Part shown: one piece after another, positions 4,110 through 55,176 of the stretch
How positions within the stretch are numbered: the stretch's first letter is position 1
Layout of the letters: every line of letters starts with the position of its first letter
From: Streptomyces coeruleorubidus
Lineage (GTDB): Bacteria; Actinomycetota; Actinomycetes; Streptomycetales; Streptomycetaceae
Length of the DNA: 64,000 nucleotides
Direction: 5' to 3'
Assembly: GCF_028885415.1 (NCBI RefSeq)
Contig: NZ_CP118527.1
Span: forward strand, 3,286,001-3,350,000
Position numbers and translations under genes: made by a program
Notes under the pieces: model-generated
Told to the model about the DNA's origin: nothing
Databases searched by the model: none
What the model saw: the letters and a program-made list of their open reading frames with translations, nothing else

Positions 4110-5606
4110 TTACACGCCGTCCTGCCGGTCCAGCACCGAGGCCAGCGCCTGCTCGAAGCCGGAGGCACGGGCCGCACCGGCGGTCGGGTCCTGCTGGCGG
4201 ACGTCGATGACGTGGCCGGTCAGCTCGGACAGCAGCACGTCCAGCGAGGTGCGGGCCACGGCCTCGGAGGACAGCAGGCTGCCCGAGGGCTCCTGGCCGA
4301 AGGCCTTGGTGCGCATAGGGGTGGCGGTGCGCTCGGGGTTGATGCAGTTGACGCGGACGCCGTCGCCGGCCCACTCGTCGGACAGGGCCTGGGTGAGGTT
4401 CACCATGGCGGCCTTGGTCGAGGAGTACAGGCTGTACTCGGCGCGGCCCCGGGTGTAGCTGCTGGAGGTGTACAGCAGCAACTGGCCCTTGGTCTCGGAC
4501 AGGTACTTGTAAGACGAACGGGCGATCTGCACCGGGGCCAGGTAGTTGACCTTCAGCGCCTCCTCGATGGTGGCGTTGTCGGTCTCGGCGAGCTTGCCGA
4601 TGCGCAGCACGCCCGCGGTGTTCACCACGTAGTCGATGCGACCGGTCTCGGCGTACGCCTTGGACAGGGCGTCGTCGACCTCCTCCGGGTTCTCCACGTG
4701 GGTGCCGGTGGTGGAGCGGCCCAGCGCGTAGACCTTGGCGCCGTAGGACTCGGCGAGCTCCGCGATGTCCTTGCCGATGCCGTAGGAGCCGCCGAAGACG
4801 ACGACCGTCTTGCCGGTCAGCAGCTCGCGGTAGGCCTCTTCGGAGACCTGCTCGGGCGCGGCCGTGGAGGCGAGCTGGAAGAGCTTGTCGGCGATGAAGA
4901 CGTCGACGGGCTGGGTGACCTTCATGTTGTACTCGTCACCCGCGACGACGTGGATCGGCACGTCCGGCAGGTACTTGAGCACGACGGAGCAGTCGTCGGT
5001 GGCCTGGAAGTTGGGGTCGCCGGCGGCGACCTCGTAGGCCCGCTTGATCGTGGACAGCTTGAAGGCCTGCGGCGTCTGGCCGCGGCGCAGCCGGGAGCGG
5101 TCCGGGATCTCGGTGATGAACTCGCCGTCGTCGCCGTGCGTACGCGTGACGATGATGGTGTCGGCGGAGGGAATGGCCACGTCGACGGCCTGGTAGCGCT
5201 CCAGCGCGGTGACGCAGTCGTCGATGACGCGCTGCGACAGCAGGGGGCGCACGGCGTCATGGAAGAGGACGTTGACGTCCTCGCCCTCGGCGAGGCCCTC
5301 GCCCAGGGCGGAGATGGCGCGCTCGGTGGTCTCGTTCCGCGTGGAGCCGCCCTCGATGATCCTCGAGACCTTCTTGAATCCGGCCTTCGCGACAATCTTC
5401 TCAATATCGGGCACATAGCCCGGCGCCATCAGCACGATGATGTCGTCGATCGAGTCGGCGTTCTCGAAAGTGGTCAGCGTGTGCTCGATGACTGCCTTGC
5501 CGGCGATCTTCAGCAGCTGCTTGGGGATCGACAGACCCACGCGCTGACCGGTGCCACCGGCCAGGATCACTGCGGTGGTACGGGGCTTGGCTATGTGCTG
5601 GGACAC
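4110..5606 (-). CDS. bifunctional IspD/TarI-type cytidylyltransferase - SDR oxidoreductase (CDP-ribitol synthesis, Bcs1/Acs1-like)
   Basis: Start chosen as GTG at 5606 (MSQHIAKPRTTAVILAGG), with an AGG ribosome site about 10 nt upstream; an in-frame start at 5651 has no such site. About 498 residues. Residues 1-235 are an IspD-like nucleotidyltransferase: VILAGGTGQRVG for CTP binding, SIPKQLL, LFHDAVRP. From about 260 comes a short-chain dehydrogenase: VVVFGGSYGIGKDIAELA (NAD(P) site), NTAGVL, Ser then the YSLYSSTKAA Tyr-x-x-x-Lys catalytic pair. The same domain order is known in Haemophilus Bcs1/Acs1, which reduces ribulose 5-phosphate and couples it to CMP. I infer CDP-ribitol supply for the TagF-like enzymes next door. 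Confidence 0.88.
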   Translation of the reverse strand: MSQHIAKPRTTAVILAGGTGQRVGLSIPKQLLKIAGKAVIEHTLTTFENADSIDDIIVLMAPGYVPDIEKIVAKAGFKKVSRIIEGGSTRNETTERAISALGEGLAEGEDVNVLFHDAVRPLLSQRVIDDCVTALERYQAVDVAIPSADTIIVTRTHGDDGEFITEIPDRSRLRRGQTPQAFKLSTIKRAYEVAAGDPNFQATDDCSVVLKYLPDVPIHVVAGDEYNMKVTQPVDVFIADKLFQLASTAAPEQVSEEAYRELLTGKTVVVFGGSYGIGKDIAELAESYGAKVYALGRSTTGTHVENPEEVDDALSKAYAETGRIDYVVNTAGVLRIGKLAETDNATIEEALKVNYLAPVQIARSSYKYLSETKGQLLLYTSSSYTRGRAEYSLYSSTKAAMVNLTQALSDEWAGDGVRVNCINPERTATPMRTKAFGQEPSGSLLSSEAVARTSLDVLLSELTGHVIDVRQQDPTAGAARASGFEQALASVLDRQDGV

Positions 5607-40775: not shown

Positions 40776-40846
40776 GCGGGCGTAGCTCAATGGTAGAGCC
40801 CTAGTCTTCCAAACTAGCTACGCGGGTTCGATTCCCGTCGCCCGCT
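40776..40846 (+). tRNA. tRNA-Gly (anticodon TCC), integration site of the AICE
   Basis: 71 nt, complete cloverleaf: gcgggcg/cgcccgc acceptor, gctc/gagc D stem, ctagt/actag anticodon stem with loop cttccaa, gcggg/cccgt T stem with ttcgatt. From base 30 onward (40805) the sequence is the 44-bp att core repeated at 50416, so its 3' half was supplied by the integrated element and the gene stays functional. Confidence 0.97.
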
Positions 40847-40848
40847 CT
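40805..40848 (+). repeat. attL core, 44-bp direct repeat within tRNA-Gly
   Basis: Identical over 44 bp to 50416-50459. Starts at tcttccaaactag in the anticodon arm and runs through the tRNA 3' end plus two bases. Flanks differ at both ends (agtct/gatct; ctctga/ctcttc), which fixes the repeat boundaries. Confidence 0.95.
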
Positions 40849-40915: not shown

Positions 40916-42073
40916 TCAGTCCGGCGTGTCCCCCGCGTGCCCCTTCCGCTTTGGATCTTGCTTCTTCTCGGTCTTCCGGCCCTTGTCGACGAGGGCGCTC
41001 AGAGCGTCGGCGATCAGCCGGTCACGTTCGGCGCTCGCGTGCTGGTAGATCAGCGCGGCCCGGGCAGTGCTGTGGCCCATGCGAGACATCAGCTCTCGCG
41101 TGCTCGCCCCCGTGGAGGCAGCCAGGGTGTTGCCCGTGTGCCGAAGATCATGGAAGTGCAGGCCCTTGATCCCGGCATCACTGCACGCCTTGCGCCACAG
41201 CCGGTTGAAGTGGTTCCGACGAGGAGTCGCCCCCTTGGCGCCGAGGAACACCCGGCCGTCGGCTCCAGGCTCGGCGTACCGCTCCAGGTGGTCACGGATG
41301 TCCGGGATGATCGCGGCTGGAATCGACACGGTGCGCTTGCCCGCAGCGCTCTTGGGTGCCTTGATCTCGCGCTGCCCGTTGAACAGCTCGGCGACGGCCC
41401 GTCGGACGCGAACGGCCCCGTGATCGAGATCGATGTCCCGGCGGTGCAGGCCAATCAGCTCGCCCCAGCGCAGGCCGAGGAATCCGGCCATCAGTACGAG
41501 CGCCCGGTAGCGGGGCTGCATGGCGTCGGCCAGGTCGTAGACCTCTTGCACGGTGGCGGTCGGTCGTTCGGGGGTGTGCACGGTGCTGGCGCCCTTGATC
41601 GTGCACGGGTTGCGCCTGATCATCTGGTCGGCGACGGCCGTGCCCATGATCGCGCGCAGCAGGGCGTACGCCTTGGCGACGGTCGTCGGGCCGGTGCCGG
41701 ACGCCAGCTTGTCAGCACGCCAGCGTCGCACGAGCGGAGGCGAGATCTCCGCGACGTTGACGGCTCCGAAGGCGGGTTCGAGGTGGTGCCGCAGGAGCGA
41801 ACCGTAGAGCTGCCGCGTGGTGGCAGTCAGCTCGCGTTCCTTGATCCAGGCAGTGGCGTACTCGCCGAACGGCACTTTCCCGGCGTCGGGGTCGTGCCAG
41901 TCGCCGCGCCGCAGCTCGGTCTGCTTGTCGGCAAGCCAGTCGTCGGCATCCTTCTTGGTGCGGAAGGTGTGGGGCGCAGGCCGGAGCTGCCCGTCCGGAC
42001 CGAGATACCGAGCCTGATAGCGACCGGACGGGAGCTTGCGGACCCGGCCGAAGTGCCGGCGCTTCCCTGCCAT
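40916..42073 (-). CDS. int: tyrosine recombinase (AICE integrase)
   Basis: 385 residues, ATG at 42073 overlapping the xis stop (TGATG). N-terminal arm-binding domain 1-65 (GSGRYQARYLGPDGQLR-like), SAM-like core-binding domain 66-160, catalytic domain 170-360 with R202 (GLRWGEL), H308 and R311 (HDLRHT), H334 (GHSTARAA) and nucleophile Y343 (LIYQHAS). All five catalytic residues are present. It lies 68 bp from attL, as usual. Basic C-terminal tail. Confidence 0.96.
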   Translation of the reverse strand: MAGKRRHFGRVRKLPSGRYQARYLGPDGQLRPAPHTFRTKKDADDWLADKQTELRRGDWHDPDAGKVPFGEYATAWIKERELTATTRQLYGSLLRHHLEPAFGAVNVAEISPPLVRRWRADKLASGTGPTTVAKAYALLRAIMGTAVADQMIRRNPCTIKGASTVHTPERPTATVQEVYDLADAMQPRYRALVLMAGFLGLRWGELIGLHRRDIDLDHGAVRVRRAVAELFNGQREIKAPKSAAGKRTVSIPAAIIPDIRDHLERYAEPGADGRVFLGAKGATPRRNHFNRLWRKACSDAGIKGLHFHDLRHTGNTLAASTGASTRELMSRMGHSTARAALIYQHASAERDRLIADALSALVDKGRKTEKKQDPKRKGHAGDTPD

Positions 42074-42285
42074 CAGGCAGCCACCCCCCGAAGGGCTGCA
42101 CCACGCCGACGCGGCTTCACCGTGTTGGCGTCGATGAACTCACGAACCGCGCTCTCGGGTATCCGGACGTGGCGGCCCACCTTCACGTAGGTGATGCGGC
42201 GCTCCTCGATCAGACGCCGGGGGAAGCGCACCGTGGTGCCGAGGACCTCGGCGACCTGGTCGACGCTGAGGTATCGCTCATTCAT
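42073..42285 (-). CDS. xis: excisionase, MerR-like helix-turn-helix
   Basis: 70 residues, ATG at 42285 (MNERYLSVDQVAEVLGTTVR). Winged-helix excisionase-family domain: YLSVDQVAEVLG recognition start, RRLIEERRITYVKVGRHVRI, ESAVREFID. The start overlaps the rep stop by 8 bp and the stop overlaps the int start by 1 bp, so rep-xis-int are translationally coupled as in pSAM2. Required to reverse integration. Confidence 0.92.
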   Translation of the reverse strand: MNERYLSVDQVAEVLGTTVRFPRRLIEERRITYVKVGRHVRIPESAVREFIDANTVKPRRRGAALRGVAA

Positions 42286-43663
42286 GGTCGTGCTCTCCTT
42301 CCTGACGCAGGTGCGCGAGGGCTTCGCGGGCGGTTTCGCGGTTGAGCTGGAGGTCGCGGGCGATGGTGGCGGCGAGGGCGGACTCGCCGGGGGTGTGGCC
42401 GTGTCCGGCGTACTGCCAGTCGGCCAGGACCAGGACGGTGTCCGGCTCGCGGTCGTCCAGGCCGAGGGAGGCGTGTTCCTGGGCGGCTCGGTAGTCGGCA
42501 CGGGCCTGGCGCAGGGCGCCGAGGGTGGTGGAGTAGCGGCGGGACTTGGAGGAGAAGTGGCCGCGGAAGCCGAGCATGTGTGCCCAGGCCCATAGGCGCC
42601 GCTCGGGGTAGAGCGGGTCGAGTTCCTTGCAGGCCTGGATGAGGCGGCGGGTGTGGTCCGGGACCTGGTGACGGTCGAGCTCGGAGAGTTCGCCGATGCG
42701 CCGGTCGAGGGTGCCGGTCGTCTCGGCGGCCTTGGTGGCGTACTTGGCGACGTAGGAGGCGACCGCCTTTTCGGTGATCTGGGAGCCGTCACCGAAGGCC
42801 TTCACTGGCCGGACGTCGAGCTGGGTGCCCCAGCGGAAGGTGCGGGCGGGCTGGTCCTCGGCGGCTGGGACGGAGACCGTGGTGTAGGGGTGCGCGGCAG
42901 CTGCACGGATGGAGTCGGCGAGGAGATCGACCGTGGCCCAGGCGGGCGGTGTGGTCTCGGGTCCGTCGGGTCCGTCGATGCGGATCACGGCGTGGAAGTG
43001 CACGGCGCCCCGCCTTTGGAACTCGGCGACCTTGCCGTAGGAGAGGCGGGCGCGCTCCTTCAGCTCCCGTTGGGTGATGCCGGCGCGGGCGGCGATCTCG
43101 CGGCGGAGCCGGTTGGTGAAGCGCTGCCAGAGCTGACCGGCGTGGTTGTTGAACAGCACCGCGCCCGCGTAGTCGTACGTGGCCGGATCGAGGGCGGTGC
43201 CCAGTTCCGGGGCGTCTGCGGCGTGGCGGATGCCGCAGCGGCAGACGCCCCGGTCGGGCCTGTTGTGGACCGGGCCGAACGAGGGAGCGGTGAGCGTGGC
43301 GAAGACCCGGGGGTGGTCCCGGACGGTGGCGGGGATGTCGCGGCGGTCGTCTCCGGCGAGCCCGGCACGGATGAGGTGGTAGGTGTCGCCCGCGTACGTC
43401 CAGGCGCAGGAGGGACAGCGCGAGGCGCGGCGGTTGCCGCAGGCAACGCGGAGGCGCCCGCCCGGCTCACTCTCGGTGCTGTAGCGGTGCAGGGTCTCGC
43501 CGGTGGTCTTGTCCTTGTGCAGGGTCCAGCCGGTGAGGTGGATGGGGTCGGCGCAGCCGCCGGTGCGGCGGATCTGCTCGTGCCAGCGGTGGTAGTCGGA
43601 TGCCGAAGCCACCCTCAGCAAGTCGCCGAGGGTGGTCGGGTCGAGCAGGTCAGGCACGCGCAC
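42278..43663 (-). CDS. repSA: RepSA-like replication initiator (HUH rolling-circle type)
   Basis: 461 residues, GTG at 43663. N-terminal Cys-rich segment (RCPSCAWTY at 82-90; CRCG at 141-144). Motif I FATLTAPSFG at 121-130, the metal-binding HUH motif VHFHAVIRID with H222 and H224, and a motif III region ASYVAKYATKA with candidate nicking Tyr 304 and 308. It nicks the double-strand origin for rolling-circle replication of the excised element. Symbol given by family resemblance to pSAM2 RepSA. Confidence 0.9.
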   Translation of the reverse strand: MRVPDLLDPTTLGDLLRVASASDYHRWHEQIRRTGGCADPIHLTGWTLHKDKTTGETLHRYSTESEPGGRLRVACGNRRASRCPSCAWTYAGDTYHLIRAGLAGDDRRDIPATVRDHPRVFATLTAPSFGPVHNRPDRGVCRCGIRHAADAPELGTALDPATYDYAGAVLFNNHAGQLWQRFTNRLRREIAARAGITQRELKERARLSYGKVAEFQRRGAVHFHAVIRIDGPDGPETTPPAWATVDLLADSIRAAAAHPYTTVSVPAAEDQPARTFRWGTQLDVRPVKAFGDGSQITEKAVASYVAKYATKAAETTGTLDRRIGELSELDRHQVPDHTRRLIQACKELDPLYPERRLWAWAHMLGFRGHFSSKSRRYSTTLGALRQARADYRAAQEHASLGLDDREPDTVLVLADWQYAGHGHTPGESALAATIARDLQLNRETAREALAHLRQEGEHDHE

Positions 43664-43835
43664 CCTCCCGGACGCGGGCGGGGACGGTGCCCTGGCCGTT
43701 GCAGGCCCGGCAGTCGATGGTGAGCGTGGGCAGGTGGCCGTGCCGGTTGCGGCTGCCGGTGGTGATGGCGGCGGTGGCGAAGCCGTCGCAGTTGGGGCAG
43801 ATGCGGGGCGTCGGCGTGGTGGTGGGGTGCGGCAT
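43650..43835 (-). CDS. small double-CxxC zinc-ribbon-like protein
   Basis: 61 residues, ATG at 43835, overlapping the rep start by 14 bp. ICPNCDGFAT and IDCRACNGQGTV give two CxxC knuckles spaced about 27 residues apart, resembling DnaJ-type or zinc-ribbon sites. Small proteins of this kind are often encoded beside rep in AICEs. Function unknown; possibly a Rep accessory. Confidence 0.7.
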   Translation of the reverse strand: MPHPTTTPTPRICPNCDGFATAAITTGSRNRHGHLPTLTIDCRACNGQGTVPARVREGARA

Positions 43836-43924
43836 GCTGGGGGTTCCTTCCGGTTCAGTGGATCGGACAGGGACGGCGCCCGGGCGGCGGATGCTTGGCG
43901 GTATCGGAGCCGCCCGGGGGCCGG

Positions 43925-44242
43925 TCAGCGTCGCTTGGCGTCGGCGTTGACCAGGGAGCGGATCACCAGGGCGCAGATGGCCAGCGAGGCGCCGGTGATG
44001 GCGACGGCCAGGAGCATGGAGACAAGGACGGCGCCGACGACCAGGACCACGGCGGTGCCACCGCCGACGAGGGCGAGCGCGGTGCCGGGGGTGAGCTGCA
44101 CCGTCGGCCGGGACGGCTCCGGGGCCACCTGGGCGGGCGGCGGAGTTTGGGTGGCCGGGACTACGGTGGTCGGCTCGGCCACGGCGGGCGGGGTGACGTG
44201 GCCGGTCGGCGTGGGCATGGTGGGGATCTTCGGGCGGAACAT
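43925..44242 (-). CDS. spdD: SpdD-like spread protein
   Basis: 105 residues from ATG at 44242 (MFRPKIPTMPTPTGHVTPPA), with GGGAG nine bases upstream. Pro/Thr-rich N terminus then two hydrophobic helices (ALALVGGGTAVVLVVGAVLVSM and LLAVAITGASLAICALVI) and a basic end. This matches my memory of SpdD proteins of Streptomyces conjugative plasmids, which help intramycelial spread after transfer. Confidence 0.75.
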   Translation of the reverse strand: MFRPKIPTMPTPTGHVTPPAVAEPTTVVPATQTPPPAQVAPEPSRPTVQLTPGTALALVGGGTAVVLVVGAVLVSMLLAVAITGASLAICALVIRSLVNADAKRR

Positions 44243-44267
44243 CGGCGGTTCTCCCTTCCGAGGGCGG

Positions 44268-44423
44268 TTACTTGACGAAGGTGTCGATGGCGGGGGCCAG
44301 GACGCTGTCGGCGAGGAGGAAGCCGCCGAGCAGCAGGACGGCGATGAGCCAGGCGGGCGGGCGGATGAGCTTGACGCCGAGGTAGCCGACGACGAGCAGG
44401 GCGAGCCAGAGCGGTACTTCCAT
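44268..44423 (-). CDS. 51-residue two-helix membrane protein in the transfer operon
   Basis: ATG at 44423 with a perfect AGGAGG nine bases upstream, TAA at 44268. MEVPLWLALLVVGYLGVKLI and PPAWLIAVLLLGGFLLADSV are two membrane helices. Codon bias is good. It sits in line between spdD and the mobile element transfer protein, so probably a spread-type protein. Confidence 0.75.
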   Translation of the reverse strand: MEVPLWLALLVVGYLGVKLIRPPAWLIAVLLLGGFLLADSVLAPAIDTFVK

Positions 44424-44436
44424 GGCTGAGGGCCTC

Positions 44437-44628
44437 CTATCGGACCTTGCAGCGGTGGGTGCGGGCGGCGAGCTGGGCGGCGGACTGGCTGGAGTAGTCG
44501 GCGGACCAGCCGCACCGGTCGGCGGTGCACACGGCGGCGTGCTTGGTCTGGCCGTGGCGGTCGCGGTGGGTGCCGATCTGCACCGGGCCGATCCGCATCA
44601 CGGAGTGGAAGTGGTCACGGGCGGGCAT
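44437..44628 (-). CDS. mobile element transfer protein (small, conserved in AICEs)
   Basis: 63 residues, ATG at 44628 (MPARDHFHSVMRIGPVQIGT). Conserved block GTHRDRHGQTKHAAVCTADRCG followed by SADYSSQSAAQLAARTHRC with three cysteines and several histidines that may bind metal. I recognise it as the small protein usually annotated mobile element transfer protein in Streptomyces. Start overlaps the DUF2637 stop by 14 bp. Confidence 0.8.
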   Translation of the reverse strand: MPARDHFHSVMRIGPVQIGTHRDRHGQTKHAAVCTADRCGWSADYSSQSAAQLAARTHRCKVR

Positions 44629-45373
44629 GACGGTGGGTCTCCCTTCGGCAGGCGAGTTGGGCGGCGATGGCGTCGGCGAGCTGGGGCGGGACGCCGAGGC
44701 GGGCGCGCAGGGTGTCGGTGTCGATCGGCGTACCGGTACGGGCCTGGTGGTCGTCGGCGACCTTGCGGGCGTGGTCGACCAGCGCGGCCGGGACCGGCAC
44801 AGCCGGAGCGGGCGCGGCCGGAGCGGGCGCGGCCGGAGCGGGCTCGGCCGGAGCGGGCTCGGCCGGAGCGGGCTCGGCGGCGGGAAGAGCCGGGGTGTCG
44901 TCGACCGCCGGGACCGGCTCAAGCTCGGGCTCTGGTTCGTTGTCGGGGACCGGCTCAGGGTTCGGTTCGGTGACCGGGGCTGCGGGCGCCGGCGGATCCT
45001 GCAGCCGGTCCGTGGCGGAGTGGGCGAGGAGAGTGCCGCCCATGAAGGCGAGCGCAGGCCAGGCCGCGACCAGGATCCGCAGCCACGCCGGGACCTGCTC
45101 CAAGTCGAGGAGTCCGGCGGTCGCGACGTTGGCGCCCAGCGAAGCGACAAGGGCGATGACGAACCAGCACCAGGCCAGCCGGGACGGCCCGTCGGAGCGC
45201 AGCCGCCGCCAGGCAGCGACCAGGAGCAGGTCCACGCTGATCGGGTAGGCCCAGGCTTTCCAGCCGTCCTGTCCTGCTGCGGCGGCCAGGTCGTGGAGGT
45301 GGGCGAAGGACAGCGCCCCGGCGATGACGGCCTGGACCAGGACGGCGTCGATGCGGAGAGCGGGGCGGGCCAT
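44615..45373 (-). CDS. DUF2637 membrane protein with Pro-Ala-Glu repeats
   Basis: 252 residues from ATG at 45373 (AAGGAG five bases upstream; a GTG at 45376 would be too close to it). Four hydrophobic segments in residues 8-125 (VLVQAVIAGALSFAHLHDLA, WAYPISVDLLLVAAW, WCWFVIALVASLGANVATAG, LRILVAAWPALAFMGGTLLA), the DUF2637 core. Residues 130-195 are a low-complexity linker encoded by five 15-bp tandem repeats (44801-44878). The C-terminal part has a helix-turn-helix-like ARLGVPPQLADAIAAQL. DUF2637 proteins are typical of Streptomyces plasmids and AICEs; role probably in transfer or spread. Confidence 0.82.
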   Translation of the reverse strand: MARPALRIDAVLVQAVIAGALSFAHLHDLAAAAGQDGWKAWAYPISVDLLLVAAWRRLRSDGPSRLAWCWFVIALVASLGANVATAGLLDLEQVPAWLRILVAAWPALAFMGGTLLAHSATDRLQDPPAPAAPVTEPNPEPVPDNEPEPELEPVPAVDDTPALPAAEPAPAEPAPAEPAPAAPAPAAPAPAVPVPAALVDHARKVADDHQARTGTPIDTDTLRARLGVPPQLADAIAAQLACRRETHRHARP

Positions 45374-45455
45374 CACGGCTCCTTCCTGTGATGTGGCATG
45401 GCGGGGGTAGGGACCTGGCGCGAAGCGGTCGCGTCGACCGGTGAAGCGGGGAGGG

Positions 45456-46811
45456 TCAGGCGGTGGCGGGGGCTGTCTTGGACAGCGGCACCCGGGCCGA
45501 GGGCAGAGCGGCGACCGCGGGCCGGAACGGTGCCAGGGCGGGCACGTCGGGGGTGCGGTCGGCGTACTTGTTGCAGAGGTTCACGGCCTGGCGCAGCGAG
45601 GTGTGCGGGGCGCGGATGCGGTGCCAGCCACCGGTGGAGTCACCGGCGATCGCGATGCCGCGTGTCTCGGCGGGGATCTGAATGGCGGCCAGGACGGCGT
45701 CCGGGGAGATGTCGCCGAAGGCCATGTTGGCGCTTGTTTCGTCGTTGACGCGGTGGGACGTGCGGCCGGTGAGCTGGGCTCGGAGCATGGTGATGCCCTT
45801 GCCGAGTTCGGAGCCGAAGCGCTGCCCGCAGATCTCCAGGTAGATTCCGGCCGCGCGGCCGAGCTGGGCGAGGCGGACCAGGGCGGTGATGATCCGGTCC
45901 CGGCGTTTCTCCTCGTCCTTCGAGGCGAACAGGGCGAGTTCGGCGACCTCGTCGACCAGGACCACGACGGGTACCGGACGGATGTCTTCGGGCAGGTCCC
46001 AGATGTCGGCGGCGATCTCCGCATCCGGCACGGCGACACTGATGCGTTGTTCAGCCCGGATCAGTTGGTAGACCTCCTCCATGTGGGAGACCAGGGCTTC
46101 GAGCAGTTCGAGGGCGGTGTCGGGGTTGTCGGCGAGGGCGGAGAACCGGCGCGCGAGCGGGAACAGCTCGACGCCTTGCTTGCAGTCGATGCCGACCAGG
46201 GCGACGTCCATCGGGGCGAGCCCGGCGACCAGGTTGCGCTGGTAGACGGACTTGCCGGACTCGGTCGCCCCGAGGGTCAGGCCGTGGGGGACCGCGCGGT
46301 AGTCGCGGTAGTGCACCGCGCCGTCCTCACGCAACGCGACCGGAACCCGCATCGGAACAGGGTCGACCTTCGCGGGCATCTGCACCCGCTTCAGCACGTC
46401 GTAGCCGGTCATCCGCACCTCAACCACACCGGAGCGGACCTCGCGGGAGATCACGCCGTACATCCCGAAGGAGTGGCGCAGCCGGTCCGTGGCGGCCGCC
46501 ACGTCGAAGGCGTCCTGTCCGGGTCGGAGCTTGAGCCGCAGGACCAGGCCGGTCCGGGTGGGCCGCAGCCGCAGGATGCGCGGGACCCGGGACTCCGGCA
46601 CCGGCCGGTTGGCCACCCGGGCCAAGGCCAGCCGCCAGCGTGAGGGCGGGACCGTCAGGCCGCAGGCGTCCATGACCGAGGCGTAGCGGACCAGGACCCG
46701 CACCGTGGCGACGAGGACTCCGAAGGTCAGCCAGTACCAGGCGGGGCGCCGCCACCGCAGGAGACCCGCAGCAGCGACGACCACAACCACAGCGACCATG
46801 AACCACGTCAT
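45456..46811 (-). CDS. FtsK/SpoIIIE-type DNA translocase, conjugal transfer protein (TraSA-like)
   Basis: 451 residues from ATG at 46811 (MTWFMVAVVVVVAAAGLL). Two N-terminal membrane segments (about 3-18 and 25-40), then a linker and the motor: Walker A GATESGKS at 181-188, GIDCKQGVELF, Walker B VVVLVDEVAELALF, and the RTSHRVNDETSANMAFGD segment typical of the FtsK sensor region. A single hexameric pump that moves double-stranded DNA between hyphae. Stop-start spacing of 2 bp with the SCO3933-like gene upstream. C-terminal tail short; the family's gamma-like winged helix is not obvious. Confidence 0.92.
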   Translation of the reverse strand: MTWFMVAVVVVVAAAGLLRWRRPAWYWLTFGVLVATVRVLVRYASVMDACGLTVPPSRWRLALARVANRPVPESRVPRILRLRPTRTGLVLRLKLRPGQDAFDVAAATDRLRHSFGMYGVISREVRSGVVEVRMTGYDVLKRVQMPAKVDPVPMRVPVALREDGAVHYRDYRAVPHGLTLGATESGKSVYQRNLVAGLAPMDVALVGIDCKQGVELFPLARRFSALADNPDTALELLEALVSHMEEVYQLIRAEQRISVAVPDAEIAADIWDLPEDIRPVPVVVLVDEVAELALFASKDEEKRRDRIITALVRLAQLGRAAGIYLEICGQRFGSELGKGITMLRAQLTGRTSHRVNDETSANMAFGDISPDAVLAAIQIPAETRGIAIAGDSTGGWHRIRAPHTSLRQAVNLCNKYADRTPDVPALAPFRPAVAALPSARVPLSKTAPATA

Positions 46812-46813
46812 GA

Positions 46814-47167
46814 TCAGGCCGCCTCGGATGCCGAACCGGTGGCGGCCAGCGAGGTGACCGCGACGGCGCGGAAGGCGATGCCGTGACGCTTCTGGCCGTT
46901 GAACTCGTTCTCCCACGGCCGGGCGATCAGTCCCGTCAGCGCGACCGGGGTTCCCATGGCCAGGTCGCTGGAGATACCGGGCTCCGGGACGGTGATGGAC
47001 AGGATCTCGACCTCGTCGTTGGCCGCGAACATCACGTCGACGGTCATGAGCTTGACGCCGTCGGCGTCGGTGGCGATCTCGCCGGTCCGGCGGTCACGGA
47101 CCTTGGGCTGCGGGGCCTTGGCGACCATCACGGTCGCGCCGGACGTCTCAACGGGGATCTGACGCAT
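46814..47167 (-). CDS. SCO3933 family regulatory protein
   Basis: 117 residues, ATG at 47167 (MRQIPVETSGATVMVAKAPQ) with AGGGAG seven bases upstream. Conserved blocks KVRDRRTGEIATDADG and GLIARPWENEFNGQKRHGIAFRA, which I recognise as the SCO3933 family found at the head of AICE transfer operons. Small beta-rich protein, possibly OB-like and DNA-binding. It is the first gene after the operator-bearing promoter. Confidence 0.85.
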   Translation of the reverse strand: MRQIPVETSGATVMVAKAPQPKVRDRRTGEIATDADGVKLMTVDVMFAANDEVEILSITVPEPGISSDLAMGTPVALTGLIARPWENEFNGQKRHGIAFRAVAVTSLAATGSASEAA

Positions 47168-47272
47168 GATGGAACTCCCTTGAGGGGCGGGAGCGGCGTA
47201 CTTGCTTGGCGGTGGGTCGCCGCTCTCGTGCGTTGACAGATGAGCGCAGCAAAGCTGCGGGTTCGCGCCCCA

Positions 47273-47318
47273 ACTGGTGCGCACCAGTAGGTTGCATCTG
47301 GTGCGCACCAGATGTCAA
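47273..47318 (-). promoter_or_regulatory. tra operon promoter with twin palindromic operators
   Basis: Minus-strand TTGACA (47313-47318) is followed 18 bp later by CAACCT (47289-47294). A perfect 18-bp palindrome atctggtgcgcaccagat (47296-47313) fills the spacer and a second perfect copy of its 16-bp form actggtgcgcaccagt (47273-47288) lies at the expected transcript start. The centres are 24 bp apart. GGTGCGCACC fits GntR-type half-sites (GT...AC). The -10 is poor, as is common in Streptomyces. Confidence 0.7.
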
Positions 47319-47400
47319 GCGCTGTCGCTGCTTTGGCTTTTCAACTCGCCTTGCTGCGACACTTCTAGGGAACCGTTTCTGCCAACGCCCCGGTAGCCAA

Positions 47401-47431
47401 CAGGGGTTAACACCTGACTCGTTAACCCCTG
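47401..47431. promoter_or_regulatory. inverted repeat upstream of the XRE regulator
   Basis: caggggttaa and ttaacccctg, 10 bp perfect, 11 bp apart, 66 bp before the XRE GTG. Followed by TAAGGT (47463-47468), a possible -10. Probably an operator for autoregulation. Confidence 0.6.
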
Positions 47432-47496
47432 CCGACCTGCGGTGATGTGCGGCATGCTGCAATAAGGTCTCTGTAACCCAGGCAGGGCGGCACCAC

Positions 47497-48630
47497 GTGA
47501 CGAACGGACTCAAGGCAGCAAGGAGCGCACGGGAGTGGTCGCAAGAGCGGCTGGTCCGGGAAATCGAGCGTTATGCGCAACAGCACATGCTCGATGTCGC
47601 GTCGAGAGCCAGCCTGCGCGTGTACGTCTCGGAGTGGGAGAACGGCCGGCGCAACGTCTCAGCCCGCTACGCCAAGATACTGCGCGCGCTGCTTGGCATC
47701 ACTGATGACGAACTGGCGGGCAGGACTGAGCTGCTGACGTCATCGGTCACGGCGGATGGATATGACGAGCTGATGGGCCGGATCGACGCGGCTCGCAGCA
47801 TCAGCACGTCCATGGTGGACACGTTCATGGACCAAACGGAGCTGCTCCGAACAATGGACCGGCAGATGGGGGCCGCAAGCCTCGTCGACCAGATGACGGC
47901 CCACCTGACGACGCTTGAGGACGCCCTCACTTTCGCCGTGCTGCCCGAGACACGGCGTCCAGTCGCACGTGCCTTGGCAGGAGCAGCGACACTCGCCGCC
48001 TGGCAAGCTCTTGACGTCGGAGCCATTGAGCGAGCCTGGCGGCACTACGAGTTGGGCAAGCGCGCCGCCCAGGAGGCCGAAGAGCCGATGTACCTGGCGC
48101 ACGCCACAGCCGAACAGGCCTACGTGCTCTGCGACGCCGGACGGGCGCCCATGGCGGTGCAGCTGATACGCGAGGCACAGCGACTCGGCGGCACGGCCAT
48201 GTCCCCACGCCTTACAGCTTGGCTGCACGCCGCAGAAGCCGAGATATGTGCCCGAGCCGGTATGCCCGACGATTGCAAGCGCGCACTGGAGAGCGCCGTA
48301 CGGTCCCTGCCTCCGGGTGAGGACGCTCGCGACCCGGACATGCTGAGCATCTTCCTCAACGAGGGGCACCTCGCCAGATGGCGCGGCAACGCACTCGCCC
48401 TGATCGGTGACCACGAAGCAGTCCAAAGCCTCTACACAGCCCTGGACACAGCCGACCCGACGTTCATACGGGCGTCCGCGGGGCTGCGCTGCGATCTCGC
48501 GCAGGCACACATGGCCCGAGGCGAGTACGACCAGGCGCAAGAGCATCTCCGCCAGGGTCGCTTGATAGCGAACCGCACCGGGTCGGTACGTCAGAGGCGC
48601 AGGATCGAGCAGCTCACGCAGCAGTTGTAG
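47497..48630 (+). CDS. XRE-family regulator with TPR-like helical domain
   Basis: 377 residues, GTG at 47497. N-terminal Cro/C1 helix-turn-helix about 5-70 (KAARSAREWSQERLVREIER then YVSEWENGRRNVSARYAKIL). The rest is helical with TPR-like repeats (ERAWRHYELGKRAAQEAEEP, HATAEQAYVLCDAGRAPMAV, DLAQAHMARGEYDQAQEHLR). Such HTH-TPR proteins in Streptomyces and its plasmids often sense a peptide or small signal. Divergent from the transfer operon, so a likely activator or signal-dependent switch, perhaps in place of the Pra activator of pSAM2. The 3' end overlaps the convergent GntR-Nudix gene by 17 bp. Confidence 0.8.
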   Translation: MTNGLKAARSAREWSQERLVREIERYAQQHMLDVASRASLRVYVSEWENGRRNVSARYAKILRALLGITDDELAGRTELLTSSVTADGYDELMGRIDAARSISTSMVDTFMDQTELLRTMDRQMGAASLVDQMTAHLTTLEDALTFAVLPETRRPVARALAGAATLAAWQALDVGAIERAWRHYELGKRAAQEAEEPMYLAHATAEQAYVLCDAGRAPMAVQLIREAQRLGGTAMSPRLTAWLHAAEAEICARAGMPDDCKRALESAVRSLPPGEDARDPDMLSIFLNEGHLARWRGNALALIGDHEAVQSLYTALDTADPTFIRASAGLRCDLAQAHMARGEYDQAQEHLRQGRLIANRTGSVRQRRRIEQLTQQL

Positions 48631-49408
48631 GCGAAGCGCCAGCGCCACGCGAGGCGAGGACGTGGAGCAGGGCAACGAGGGTGCCAGAGCCCATGAGTTC
48701 GCCCCGCGCCATGAGGCCAGGAATGTCAGAGAGCGGCACCCAGGCGATGTGCCCCGCCTCCTCCAGGTCCGTCGGCTCTCCTACGAGCTTGGCGCCCTTG
48801 CCTACGAAGATGTCGTGCGGTGAGTCGACCATGCCCACCATGGGCTGATACGTGACCACCTGCTCAAGGGAGTCTGGCCGCCAGCCGGTTTCTTCCTCGA
48901 CCTCACGCAGCGCCGTCTGCAAGGAGTCCTCCCCCTCGTCGACGATGCCACCCGGGAGCTCCCATCCGAACGAGTCGGGCACGAAGCGGTAGCGCCACAT
49001 CATCAGGACACGGTCCTGGTCGTCGATGACGGCCGCGATGGCCACGTGGTGGAGCTTCACTACGTGGTGCTCGAAGCGGTCGACTCCTGGCGGCTCGACG
49101 TCGACGAGGCTGAGCTTCACCCAGCGGTTGTCGTACAGAGTCCGCTCACCATGGATCTGCCACGGCTCGACATCCGCCGGCGCCTGGGTAGTCACAGACC
49201 GATCCGGCACCCGATAGGAGCTACGGCCATGCACCTCAATGGCGCCCTCGGCGACGAGCTTCGCCAGCACCTGGCGGAGAGCCGTACGGCCGATGCCCAG
49301 CTCTTCGGACAGGGTTCGCTCAGATGGGATCTTGGAGCCAGGCGAGTACTTCCCCGTCGAGATCCACTCGCGGATCGTGCGGTAGACCCGCTCCGACTTC
49401 GGTCCCAT
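48614..49408 (-). CDS. GntR-type repressor fused to a Nudix hydrolase domain (KorSA-Pif-like)
   Basis: 264 residues, ATG at 49408. Residues 4-68 are a GntR winged helix: VYRTIREWISTGKYSPGSKI, PSERTLSEELGIGRTALRQV, GAIEVHGRSSYRVP. Residues 88-240 are a Nudix domain with a perfect GX5EX7REUXEEXGU box: G154, E160, R168-E169, E172-E173, G175, W176. Its order resembles ADP-ribose pyrophosphatases (GWELPGGIVDEGED; YQPMVGMVDSPHDIFVG). In pSAM2 the GntR repressor KorSA and the Nudix immunity factor Pif are separate proteins; here both are in one chain. I infer repression of transfer genes plus conjugal immunity, or a repressor that senses a nucleotide. Confidence 0.85.
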   Translation of the reverse strand: MGPKSERVYRTIREWISTGKYSPGSKIPSERTLSEELGIGRTALRQVLAKLVAEGAIEVHGRSSYRVPDRSVTTQAPADVEPWQIHGERTLYDNRWVKLSLVDVEPPGVDRFEHHVVKLHHVAIAAVIDDQDRVLMMWRYRFVPDSFGWELPGGIVDEGEDSLQTALREVEEETGWRPDSLEQVVTYQPMVGMVDSPHDIFVGKGAKLVGEPTDLEEAGHIAWVPLSDIPGLMARGELMGSGTLVALLHVLASRGAGASPTTAA

Positions 49409-49468
49409 CCGTTGAGCACACTCCTTGTCGCCGAGTTATGTCGAGCGACACAAGCGTAGCCGCCGGAG

Positions 49469-49482
49469 TACTCACGTGAGTA
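49469..49482. promoter_or_regulatory. palindrome upstream of the GntR-Nudix gene
   Basis: tactcacgtgagta, 14-bp perfect palindrome, 60 bp before the GntR-Nudix ATG; a second one, tgtcgagcgaca, lies at 49439-49450. Likely autoregulatory operator sites. Confidence 0.5.
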
Positions 49483-49545
49483 GACACAGCCGGAACCAGA
49501 CGATCAGTGGGGGGCGCGGTAGAACTTTCCCTACTTCATCAAGTG

Positions 49546-49836
49546 CCCGCGCACGGCGCGGGCGCGCGCCGCCTCTGCGGCGCGGCCTGCCTCCTGTCTT
49601 CGCCCCGGCTGGCCGCGCCCGGCGGCGCGCTCGGCGGCTGCGGGCACGCGGTAGGGAGAAACCCTCTGTGGCTGGGGTGATCGACTCCGCGACTTTAGCC
49701 AGCCACTTTGGGGCGAGCCTCTAAGATCATGGCCCCAACGTCGTGCTTTAACGGGCAGGTCCACAGACTGCCCGACTCGCCGGAAGCTTACGGGGCCATG
49801 ATCACTCGCCCCAAAGCAGCTCCCGGCCAAAGTCGC
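49546..49836. other. structured non-coding region, candidate replication origin (dso/sso) or transfer locus
   Basis: No gene between 49409 and 49974. It contains small GC hairpins (cccgcgc/gcgcggg at 49546-49562; gccgc/gcggc at 49568-49581), then a large symmetric structure. The nested arms are gcgactttagcc with ggccaaagtcgc (49689-49700/49825-49836), ctttggggcgag with ctcgccccaaag (49706-49717/49805-49816) and gatcatggcccc with ggggccatgatc (49725-49736/49792-49803). Inside is cgggcag/ctgcccg (49752-49774). Such folds are typical of single-strand origins and nick sites of rolling-circle replicons. Confidence 0.6.
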
Positions 49837-49974
49837 TCCGCCGATCACGTGGCTGGCTGACAGGTCGCGTTGCGTGATGAGCGAGCCTGTAGGGAAGGAT
49901 GCACCTACACAGCCATCGGGCCGATCACCAGCCTGACTGGTTCTGCCCGGCAGCGCACACATAGGGGGACTCTC

Positions 49975-50187
49975 ATGATCGAGCTAGGCATCCTGTTCGG
50001 CCTGTTACTGATGACAGTACTGGCTTTGATCTTCGTACTCCTGCGACGACGAAGCGGCAAGACGGAGAACGCCGACGGACTTCTCATCGAGCAGGCACGG
50101 CGGATACAGGCACAGAACGATCGAGTGACCTACGGACCTGGGTCAAAGAACAGCATGCCAACCATGCGCGATCCCTACCGCCCCTAG
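49975..50187 (+). CDS. 70-residue membrane protein with a TTA codon
   Basis: ATG at 49975 with AGGGGGA upstream. MIELGILFGLLLMTVLALIF is one membrane helix followed by RRRSGKTENADGLLIEQARR, a basic juxtamembrane stretch and an amphipathic helix, then a polar end. Codon 11 is TTA (50005-50007), the rare leucine codon read only by the bldA tRNA in Streptomyces, so translation may be limited to developing mycelium. Last gene before attR. No family recognised. Confidence 0.6.
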   Translation: MIELGILFGLLLMTVLALIFVLLRRRSGKTENADGLLIEQARRIQAQNDRVTYGPGSKNSMPTMRDPYRP

Positions 50188-50415: not shown

Positions 50416-50459
50416 TCTTCCAAACTAGCTACGCGGGTTCGATTCCCGTCGCCCGCTCT
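50416..50459 (+). repeat. attR core, 44-bp direct repeat
   Basis: Exact copy of 40805-40848: it carries the original 3' half of tRNA-Gly without its 5' half, so it is not a tRNA gene. Marks the right end of the element. Confidence 0.95.
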
Positions 50460-54714: not shown

Positions 54715-55176
54715 TCATCCGACGAGACCGAGAAGTGCGCGCATCCGCGCGTACTTCTCGGTCAGTCGTTTGCGGGTGGCCTCGTCGAGGGCCGCGAGGC
54801 GTGCCGGGTCCGCGTTGTGCGCCAGGTCCGCCTCCTTCACCAGCAGCGCGCCGGGCGTGGCGAGGATGCGCGCGGCGTACGCCTCGGGCGGTTCCCCCGC
54901 CCGCTTGGTGACCGCGCGGACGATGTCCTTGGTACGGCTGCTCAGCGCGGCCTCGCGCAGCCACTGAGGCGACAGCGCCTCGTCCTCGACGGCGTCGTGC
55001 AGCCAGGCCGCCGCGATCTGCTCCTCGTCGCCGCCCCGCGCCCGTACGCCCTGCGCGACGGCCTGGAGATGCTCGGCGTAGGGCCGTCCGGCCTTGTCGG
55101 TCTGGCCGGCGTGCGCGGCGCGGGCGGTGGCCTCGACCTGGGCCAGGGTCAGCGGGGTGCGGGGTGTCTCGGTCAC
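54715..55176 (-). CDS. HD-domain hydrolase (RelA/SpoT hydrolase-like, small)
   Basis: 153 residues, GTG at 55176. HD signature in EEQIAAAWLHDAVED (near 60-70) with a preceding His (AEHLQAV) and a later D in VKEADLAHNADPARL: a complete H...HD...D metal site as in small (p)ppGpp hydrolases (Mesh1-like) and related phosphohydrolases. Soluble. Substrate uncertain. Confidence 0.82.
   Translation of the reverse strand: MTETPRTPLTLAQVEATARAAHAGQTDKAGRPYAEHLQAVAQGVRARGGDEEQIAAAWLHDAVEDEALSPQWLREAALSSRTKDIVRAVTKRAGEPPEAYAARILATPGALLVKEADLAHNADPARLAALDEATRKRLTEKYARMRALLGLVG
54726..54763. terminator. stem-loop overlapping the 3' end of the HD gene
   Basis: gaccgagaagt-gcgcg / cgcgc-gt-acttctcggtc, 16 pairs, inside the last codons of the HD gene and 27 bp past the acyltransferase stop. 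It can end the plus-strand transcript even though the minus strand codes through it. Confidence 0.6.

Follow-up and report, generated by a model that had tools for sequence, protein, structure and literature searches.

A GntR–Nudix fusion protein encoded by a pSAM2-type element of Streptomyces is a candidate repressor of the transfer genes

The 64,000-nucleotide stretch of Streptomyces coeruleorubidus DNA analysed here (the window; NZ_CP118527.1, positions 3,286,001 to 3,350,000) holds an actinomycete integrative and conjugative element (AICE) of 9.6 kb and of the RepSA type, with 44-bp direct repeats at both ends. One of its genes codes for a protein of 264 residues in which a GntR-type winged-helix head is joined to a complete Nudix domain. 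We find that a perfect palindrome, CTGGTGCGCACCAG, is present twice at the tra promoter region of this element, and that tandem palindromes of this kind accompany the fusion protein in other Streptomyces genomes. From these sequence comparisons we consider it rather probable that the protein is a direct repressor of tra, and that its Nudix domain dimerises and senses, perhaps also hydrolyses, a nucleotide ligand. The repressor side of this proposal is well supported; on the more tentative ligand side, the timing of the element's movement might be set by a small molecule.

A GntR head and an intact Nudix domain in one chain

The preliminary description of this DNA had noted a GntR head and an intact Nudix box in a single 264-residue chain, and this was confirmed. 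Residues 5-67 matched Pfam family PF00392 with 67.3 bits against a curated cut-off of 27, which assigns the head to the GntR superfamily, and at E ≤ 1e-3 Pfam returned GntR and NUDIX only. The full Nudix box, together with an ADP-ribose pyrophosphatase (ADPRase) fold, assigns the C-terminal domain to the ADP-ribose pyrophosphatase group of the Nudix hydrolases, the fold matches including MT-ADPRase (1mqw) and the Bdellovibrio NDP-sugar hydrolase (5c7q). The fold list (VIA-align) was filled by the Nudix domain; for the head, the assignment comes from Pfam and from phmmer, which matched GntR-family chains. No UTRA domain was found by Pfam, and residues 80-257 have the Nudix fold.

The exact Nudix motif is kept in 47 of the 48 fused copies described below (L075 being the exception) and in 78 of 81 relatives, and the positions that are invariant in an alignment of 57 sequences include G154, E160, R168, E169, E172, E173, G175, P189 and E217. 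Given that the catalytic residues have been kept, the fusion protein is probably able to cleave its ligand.

A pair of palindromes at the tra promoter region accompanies the fusion protein

When palindromes were counted in the sequences upstream of xre, which is divergent from tra and codes for an NsdA-family regulator, TCTGGTGCGCACCAGA stood out. The two copies of CTGGTGCGCACCAG in the window element are listed in Table 1 as candidate operators 1 and 2, together with the promoter-like hexamers between which operator 1 is placed; operator 2 would lie over the expected transcription start. The position of the -35-like hexamer is occupied by TTGAC in 34 of the 44 loci that have a core there, and by TTGC in the remaining 10. 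The exact 14-bp palindrome has only two copies in the host genome (a single contig of 9.41 Mb; 9.4 Mb in the site searches), both of them at tra. When the centre base was left free and one mismatch was allowed, there were 46 strand hits, as against 27 for a reversed control; a near copy at 4565268, CTGGTGCTCACCAG, has one base changed at the centre. Palindromes of the TGGT-ACCA type are typical of FadR-like GntR heads.

Two exact copies of the core, TGGTGCGCACCA, were found in 43 of the 48 fused loci, one copy in two loci (L041, and L009, where each repeat unit has one) and none in three (L040, L060 and L066, the last two also lacking any detected Tra, Rep or Int relative). The two cores are 24 or 25 bp apart in 41 loci, 21 bp in one and 22 bp in one. 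By its design the search admitted only an invariant core; outside it the bases vary.

A match to the fusion protein at E ≤ 1e-60 is present in 53 of 295 Streptomyces species genomes, a set to which the genome of the window itself belongs. It can be seen that the tandem core TGGTGCGCACCA-N5-20-TGGTGCGCACCA is present in 46 of the 295, at 47 places, each of them 1258-1362 bp from a fused gene; all 46 belong to the 53 protein-positive genomes, and the tandem core is absent from all 242 genomes in which the protein had no match. A reversed control pattern gave 0 among the matches listed. The seven protein-positive genomes without a tandem core are G072, G171, G196 (one core, in L041), G223, G283, G224 and G252. 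G569, a genome that belongs to another family, has three exact cores: two follow a TTGACA in the stretch that separates xre from the next genes, and the third stands 41 bp before the ATG of the fused gene itself. When the 80 nt before the fused ATG were searched, a near copy (at most 3 mismatches of 14) was found in 32 of the 48 fused loci, 38-48 bp before the ATG; shuffled sequences gave about 0.8%.

The preliminary description had taken the protein to control transfer, and the co-occurrence of the tandem palindrome at the tra promoter region with the fusion protein suggests that this level of control was right. Its designation as KorSA and Pif in one protein was not right as a claim of membership: as regards KorSA, the UTRA domain is absent and the candidate sites are on tra, and the Pif part is conjectural. 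A nucleotide switch of DNA binding, which had also been put forward, is plausible, and the earlier interpretation as a whole is partly supported.

The fusion is widespread on mobile elements

The preliminary description had proposed looking for the fused architecture among actinobacterial elements, and it was found there: 49 of the 295 Streptomyces genomes hold a near-full-length fused copy, four of these places having a stop inside the alignment. Dropped from the 53 were G072 (a broken piece) and G171, G223 and G283 (no head in the match). A search with the protein gave 2081 of 4223 candidates at E ≤ 1e-3, a count that takes in Nudix-only relatives; both domains were present in all 120 proteins among the matches listed. 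In a class-wide sample, 59 of 296 genomes matched at E ≤ 1e-40, in nearly every case through the Nudix part alone, and G569 was the only one outside Streptomyces whose match covered the head (61-62% protein identity); its locus has an xre that is 60% identical and an integrase-like match. That the fusion is a unique oddity is ruled out by the many fused copies in the database and in the Streptomyces genomes.

Surroundings of up to 20 kb were taken for 48 of 55 listed places; those left out were G265, G285, G288, G166, G072 and G223, and the window's own place, which the window covers. These 48 places, the window and a Streptomyces formicae plasmid make up the 50 loci examined, of which 48 are fused (L086 is truncated and L087 headless). 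At least one Tra-like, Rep/Prim-Pol-like or Int-like neighbour is present in 46 of the 48 fused loci. The concern that the fused architecture might be that of a widespread chromosomal regulator of metabolism with no relation to AICEs was borne out as to its being common but not as to its location, and such a regulator was rejected on the strength of these neighbours and of the exact 14-mer occurring in the host genome only at the two tra sites.

Two backbones can be told apart among the fused loci. The first is of the RepSA/TraSA type (the window, L009 and L040-L053, with parts missing in some), and the second, in 28 loci, has another FtsK-like Tra, with a Prim-Pol in 19 of the 28; L060, L061, L066 and L084 fall in neither. 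Pfam run on single representatives of the second backbone gave FtsK at E 4.3e-7 and Prim-Pol at E 8.6e-46 and 2e-9. The Tra-like tally rests in part on FtsK-like calls made by eye, TRA3 (L076) having no Pfam hit and TRA4 (L054) falling below the FtsK cut-off. A convergent xre lies beside the fused gene in 46 of the 48 loci; of the remaining two, L040 has no xre, and in L009 the best xre match is in another repeat unit, although the pair is there in the annotation.

L009, the S. formicae 'plasmid' NZ_CP071873.1 of 27.8 kb, is built from an AICE unit of 10.4 kb repeated in tandem; the unit resembles the window element and holds the same fusion/xre gene pair. The tandem structure is possibly an assembly or concatemer effect.

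The same GntR head is also found on other tails. Four proteins of 124-166 aa (P0251, P0254, P0258 and P0281) carry it with another short tail; P0254 had no match in the 295 genomes at E ≤ 1e-32, nor in viral contigs, and a plasmid search with it yielded nothing beyond distant GntR proteins and, for 55% of the query, the fused head. In phage phiC31, gp26 (gene 26, L092 37114-37638; also in L247) has the same head, 69% identical over 68 aa, on an unrelated tail, and its recognition-helix stretch, IGRTALRQVLAKLVAEG, is identical to that of the window protein. A phage relative in L248 matches the tail only. It might be that phiC31 gp26 acts on a resident AICE.

Relatives have separate or different DNA-binding heads

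For comparison we used 81 relatives, namely the best 80 of 228 confirmed loci, obtained with an alignment that combined free Nudix proteins with double-GntR-Nudix fusions, and the NBC_01304 plasmid locus (L088). Named loci were used since the genus-level set held no clear double-GntR fusion. S. ambofaciens is not named among the best 120 of 791 matches of the P0123 search or among the best 80 of 228 relative loci. The convergent Nudix-xre pair is spread over actinobacterial genera that include Nonomuraea, Lentzea, Saccharothrix and Actinoplanes (loci L158-L237 and L088). In these relatives xre, which is about 34-45% identical, is convergent in 73 of the 81, ends within 60 bp in 70 and overlaps in 66.

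A separate GntR gene was detected in 43 of the 81 relatives, 37 of them matched best by a GntR-UTRA query and six by a double-GntR query; that of L168 was matched by the head only. Of the 43, 42 lie on the xre side and 36 run in the direction of Nudix and tra. Pfam found UTRA in six query proteins (L088, L199, L213, L171, L177 and L169); in L189 it recognised two GntR domains. A further seven relatives have the Nudix domain fused to another head, double-GntR in three and HTH_17/MerR-like in four, none of them with a separate GntR. In L165 and L168 an HTH_17/MerR-like gene of 78-88 aa, fused in relatives, is a separate open reading frame (ORF) just upstream of Nudix.

No separate GntR was found on the tra/xre side in any of the 48 plus 7 fused loci, hits in L009 (a second fused copy), L042 and L052 (6.8 and 9.5 kb away on the far side) being set aside. 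Fisher's test for 0 of 55 fused as against 43 of 74 unfused loci gave p 2e-14, a description rather than a probability, given the shared ancestry, the different ways in which the sets were drawn and the three hits set aside. The distribution reads as a 'Rosetta stone' pattern in which two regulators that would work together have repeatedly been joined.

Which protein binds which repeat

The fusion protein has a possible competitor for the tra palindrome. The NsdA-type XRE protein might bind CTGGTGCGCACCAG and repress tra, the fusion being mainly an enzyme, and xre is indeed divergent from tra at the same gap. The co-occurrence in Streptomyces cannot tell which protein binds the core, because xre and the fusion occur together there. 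The related Nudix loci point the other way: 73 of the 81 without this head have an xre, and the TGGTGCGCACCA core was found in none of the 81, a result that we take as support rather than proof, as the xre genes of these relatives are more distant.

A better candidate site for the XRE protein lies near the start of its own gene. In the first set of loci, GTTAAC-N7-10-GTTAAC is present with at most 2 mismatches in 43 of 48 xre upstream regions (L086 and L087 included), compared with 1.9% for mononucleotide shuffles, and in G569 an exact GTTAAC-N8-GTTAAC lies close to where xre starts. The repeat is also found in 6/6 loci that have xre together with a separate double-GntR gene, that is, a different GntR, and in 2/24 loci in which no GntR was found; it is in none of the other groups of relatives. 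A second palindrome, TCATGC-N6, occurs upstream of xre in 9 of 15 unfused loci of the Nonomuraea type, and this palindrome and the GTTAAC repeat of the double-GntR set are the only strong ones in unfused xre upstream regions. The TGGTGCGCACCA core is in addition found just before the fused gene itself. We conclude that repression of tra by the XRE protein is rather unlikely, and that the simplest assignment would give the GTTAAC repeat to xre and TGGTGCGCACCA to the GntR-Nudix protein.

A number of observations weigh against a GntR-Nudix repressor acting at tra. Xre and its GTTAAC repeat are kept together with the fusion in the other-family genome G569 as well, and 51 of the 52 Streptomyces genomes with an xre match (E ≤ 1e-50) also match the fusion protein. 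No promoter in 47100-49700 was picked up by a formal sigma-70 scan and the -10 is weak, so the tra promoter is inferred from position and conservation. The window copy of the fused gene has no recognisable site of its own (6 of 14 mismatches at best), and 15 other fused loci likewise have none at up to 3 mismatches. Thirty-one of the 74 unfused loci have no separate GntR by the queries used. All the locus sets are phylogenetically related and their counts are not independent events. Phage phiC31, despite the same recognition helix, has no TGGTGCGCACCA site at up to one mismatch. Lastly, the tandem core was found in two IMG/VR contigs, L244 and L245. The first is AICE-like (xre 63%, Prim-Pol 67%); the protein is not matched in full there, although two Nudix matches of 29-30% are present. 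Only 4 bases of the stretch follow its xre, and most likely the contig stops before the fusion gene. In the second, an unrelated phage contig unlike Streptomyces and a counterexample, the tandem core (4905-4947) has two TGGTGCGCACCA cores 31 bp apart and no GntR gene was detected; another regulator may use the same palindrome there.

A model for repression and its release

In the model that we favour, the ADP-ribose-pyrophosphatase-type Nudix domain would hold the dimer and set two GntR winged helices on each CTGGTGCGCACCAG palindrome. With operator 1 inside the expected -35/-10 spacer and operator 2 over the start, the bound repressor would bar RNA polymerase from the run tra-spd-repSA-xis-int, and a weaker site before the fusion gene would allow autoregulation in most of the fused loci, the window copy being an exception. 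Ordinary GntR regulators have a UTRA or FCD effector domain, and here the Nudix domain would fill that position. A ligand resembling ADP-ribose, or another nucleoside diphosphate, might change the dimer and free the DNA; the repressor would then destroy the ligand and thereby reset itself, a step that is probable because the catalytic residues are kept.

The sites also bear on the sign of regulation. When the GntR-type AICE regulator SCO3932 was overproduced, its target promoters became more active (PMC8584621). Activation of tra by the fusion is nevertheless very improbable, since neither candidate site is upstream of the -35: one follows the -35-like hexamer and the other covers the expected start.

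Two other readings concern the Nudix domain. It is possible that the domain is purely a ligand sensor whose active-site residues bind only metal and ligand; this is a variant of the model above, overlapping with it and differing on catalysis alone. NrtR, a DNA-binding dimer with a Nudix effector domain in which ADP-ribose suppresses binding (PMC4666351), provides the precedent, but its Nudix signature is impaired, in contrast to the signature kept in all but one of the fused copies. In the second reading, the protein could be chiefly an immunity enzyme like Pif, the Nudix domain acting in the recipient by hydrolysing a trigger of transfer and the GntR head setting only its own expression. Pif is described as a Nudix protein that acts in the recipient against redundant exchange (PMC3218068), and the kept catalytic residues and the near-operator before the gene in 32 fused loci would agree with such a role. 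The best and most conserved sites, however, are at tra, and in the window copy the gene is without a site of its own, which makes this explanation unlikely.

More speculatively, and with considerable doubt on our part, the fusion could be receptor and eraser of a mating signal in one, the signal lifting the head off the tra promoter and the active site of element-bearing cells destroying it. A nucleotide-type signal from element-free cells or a damaged host would bind the Nudix domain, and its destruction in bearers would prevent self-induction in a manner resembling Pif-type conjugal immunity. The separate GntR and Nudix genes of relatives would then be a two-protein version of the circuit, into which phiC31, with the same head on gp26 and no Nudix, may tap.

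The host element

The features of the element are collected in Table 1. The preliminary description had called it pSAM2-like, and tRNA att repeats, an integrase, RepSA and an FtsK-type Tra identify it as an AICE of the pSAM2 type. A co-directional run extends from 47167 to 40916 (small gene, tra, DUF2637, transfer/Spd, repSA, xis-like and integrase genes), and tra through int may form a single operon. The small transfer and spread genes were named by matches to genes of the S. formicae element. The xre gene is convergent with the GntR-Nudix gene, their 3' ends overlapping by 17 nt. No window gene was recognised as pra, a homologue of which was not searched for.

Between the fusion gene and the att end there is a strong single-strand DNA hairpin (49665-49870; z -5.1, with 0/200 shuffles equally stable), which could be the single-strand origin of the RepSA rolling-circle element. 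A 70-aa ORF with a hydrophobic start lies at 49975-50187 (+). Outside the element, a gene for an HD_4-domain protein, 54715-55176 (-), adjoins a SpoIIE-domain gene.

Table 1. Features of the element and of its control region, in window coordinates.
Feature	Position	Strand	Remarks
att repeat, one end	40805..40848	.	3' end of tRNA-Gly(TCC) 40776-40847
Tyrosine integrase	40916..42073	-	PF00589 E 1.2e-18
xis-like HTH_17 gene	42073..42285	-	predicted start
repSA replication initiator	42278..43663	-	PF20199 E 2e-149
Small transfer/spread genes (mobile element transfer protein, SpdD-like, two short ORFs)	43650..44628	-	
DUF2637 protein	44615..45376	-	
tra, FtsK/SpoIIIE DNA translocase	45456..46811	-	PF01580 E 7.9e-47; start approximate
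First gene of tra operon, 117 aa	46814..47167	-	counted from predicted ATG
Candidate operator 2, perfect palindrome CTGGTGCGCACCAG	47274..47287	.	24 bp from operator 1
Weak -10-like hexamer CAACCT	47289..47294	-	between the two operators; predicted
Candidate operator 1, perfect palindrome CTGGTGCGCACCAG	47298..47311	.	one base downstream of -35-like hexamer
-35-like TTGACA of tra operon	47313..47318	-	predicted
Inverted repeat GGGGTTAAC-N9-GTTAACCCC	47403..47429	.	candidate xre autoregulatory site
xre, NsdA-family HTH-TPR regulator, 377 aa	47497..48630	+	NF053720 E 2.3e-46
GntR-Nudix fusion gene, 264 aa	48614..49408	-	
Nudix domain, ADP-ribose pyrophosphatase fold	48722..49051	-	Pfam residues 120-229; fold match spans 80-257
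Nudix box, intact, residues 154-176	48881..48949	-	
GntR winged-helix head, residues 5-67	49208..49396	-	Pfam PF00392; model
Second att repeat, other element end	50416..50459	.	

Comparison with known systems

A literature search found no published description of a GntR-Nudix fusion in the accessible texts. A gene with a helix-turn-helix and a nudix domain on ICE01 is given one sentence, with data not shown (PMC9513070), and clusters of NUDIX and of GntR genes are named separately in PMC13118837, the accessible part of which mentions no fusion. AICEs are reported to carry KorSA-like GntR proteins, NsdA-like XRE proteins and an mdp-nud-xre cluster, the last in four Frankia AICEs, Sco5349, pMEA100 and pSE211 (PMC3218068). 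That cluster resembles the present locus in its Nudix and XRE genes on AICEs; the accessible text mentions neither a GntR head on nud nor an operator. In the relatives described above, the control locus of a mobile element is seen to swap DNA-binding heads again and again around a constant Nudix-XRE pair.

KorSA of pSAM2 and its homologue SCO3932 are, like the fusion, GntR-headed AICE regulators of element functions. SCO3932 is of the HutC type with a UTRA domain, whereas the fusion has Nudix in its place, and KorSA is reported to bind the pra promoter and its own, no site having been found upstream of traSA (PMC8584621), whereas the predicted sites of the fusion are at tra. Pif is by description a Nudix protein of a pSAM2-type AICE, to which the fusion adds a DNA-binding head. 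The mechanism of conjugal immunity by Pif was stated to be unknown (PMC3218068), and the question becomes testable with a Nudix domain covalently joined to a likely repressor of the tra promoter with a 12-bp core.

The ADP-ribose pyrophosphatases 1mqw and 5c7q share the C-terminal fold and the active-site signature with the fusion, but the matched chains, of 180-207 aa, have no DNA-binding head. Closest in design are NrtR and BtAraR, in which a Nudix-fold ligand domain and a winged helix are likewise combined in one dimeric repressor, with ADP-ribose as effector in some (PMC4666351). In NrtR, however, the Nudix domain is N-terminal and the winged helix C-terminal, an order that is reversed in the fusion, and the fusion is encoded by an AICE and apparently aimed at tra genes. 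It adds to these systems a Nudix effector domain of opposite layout to that of NrtR, with its active site intact.

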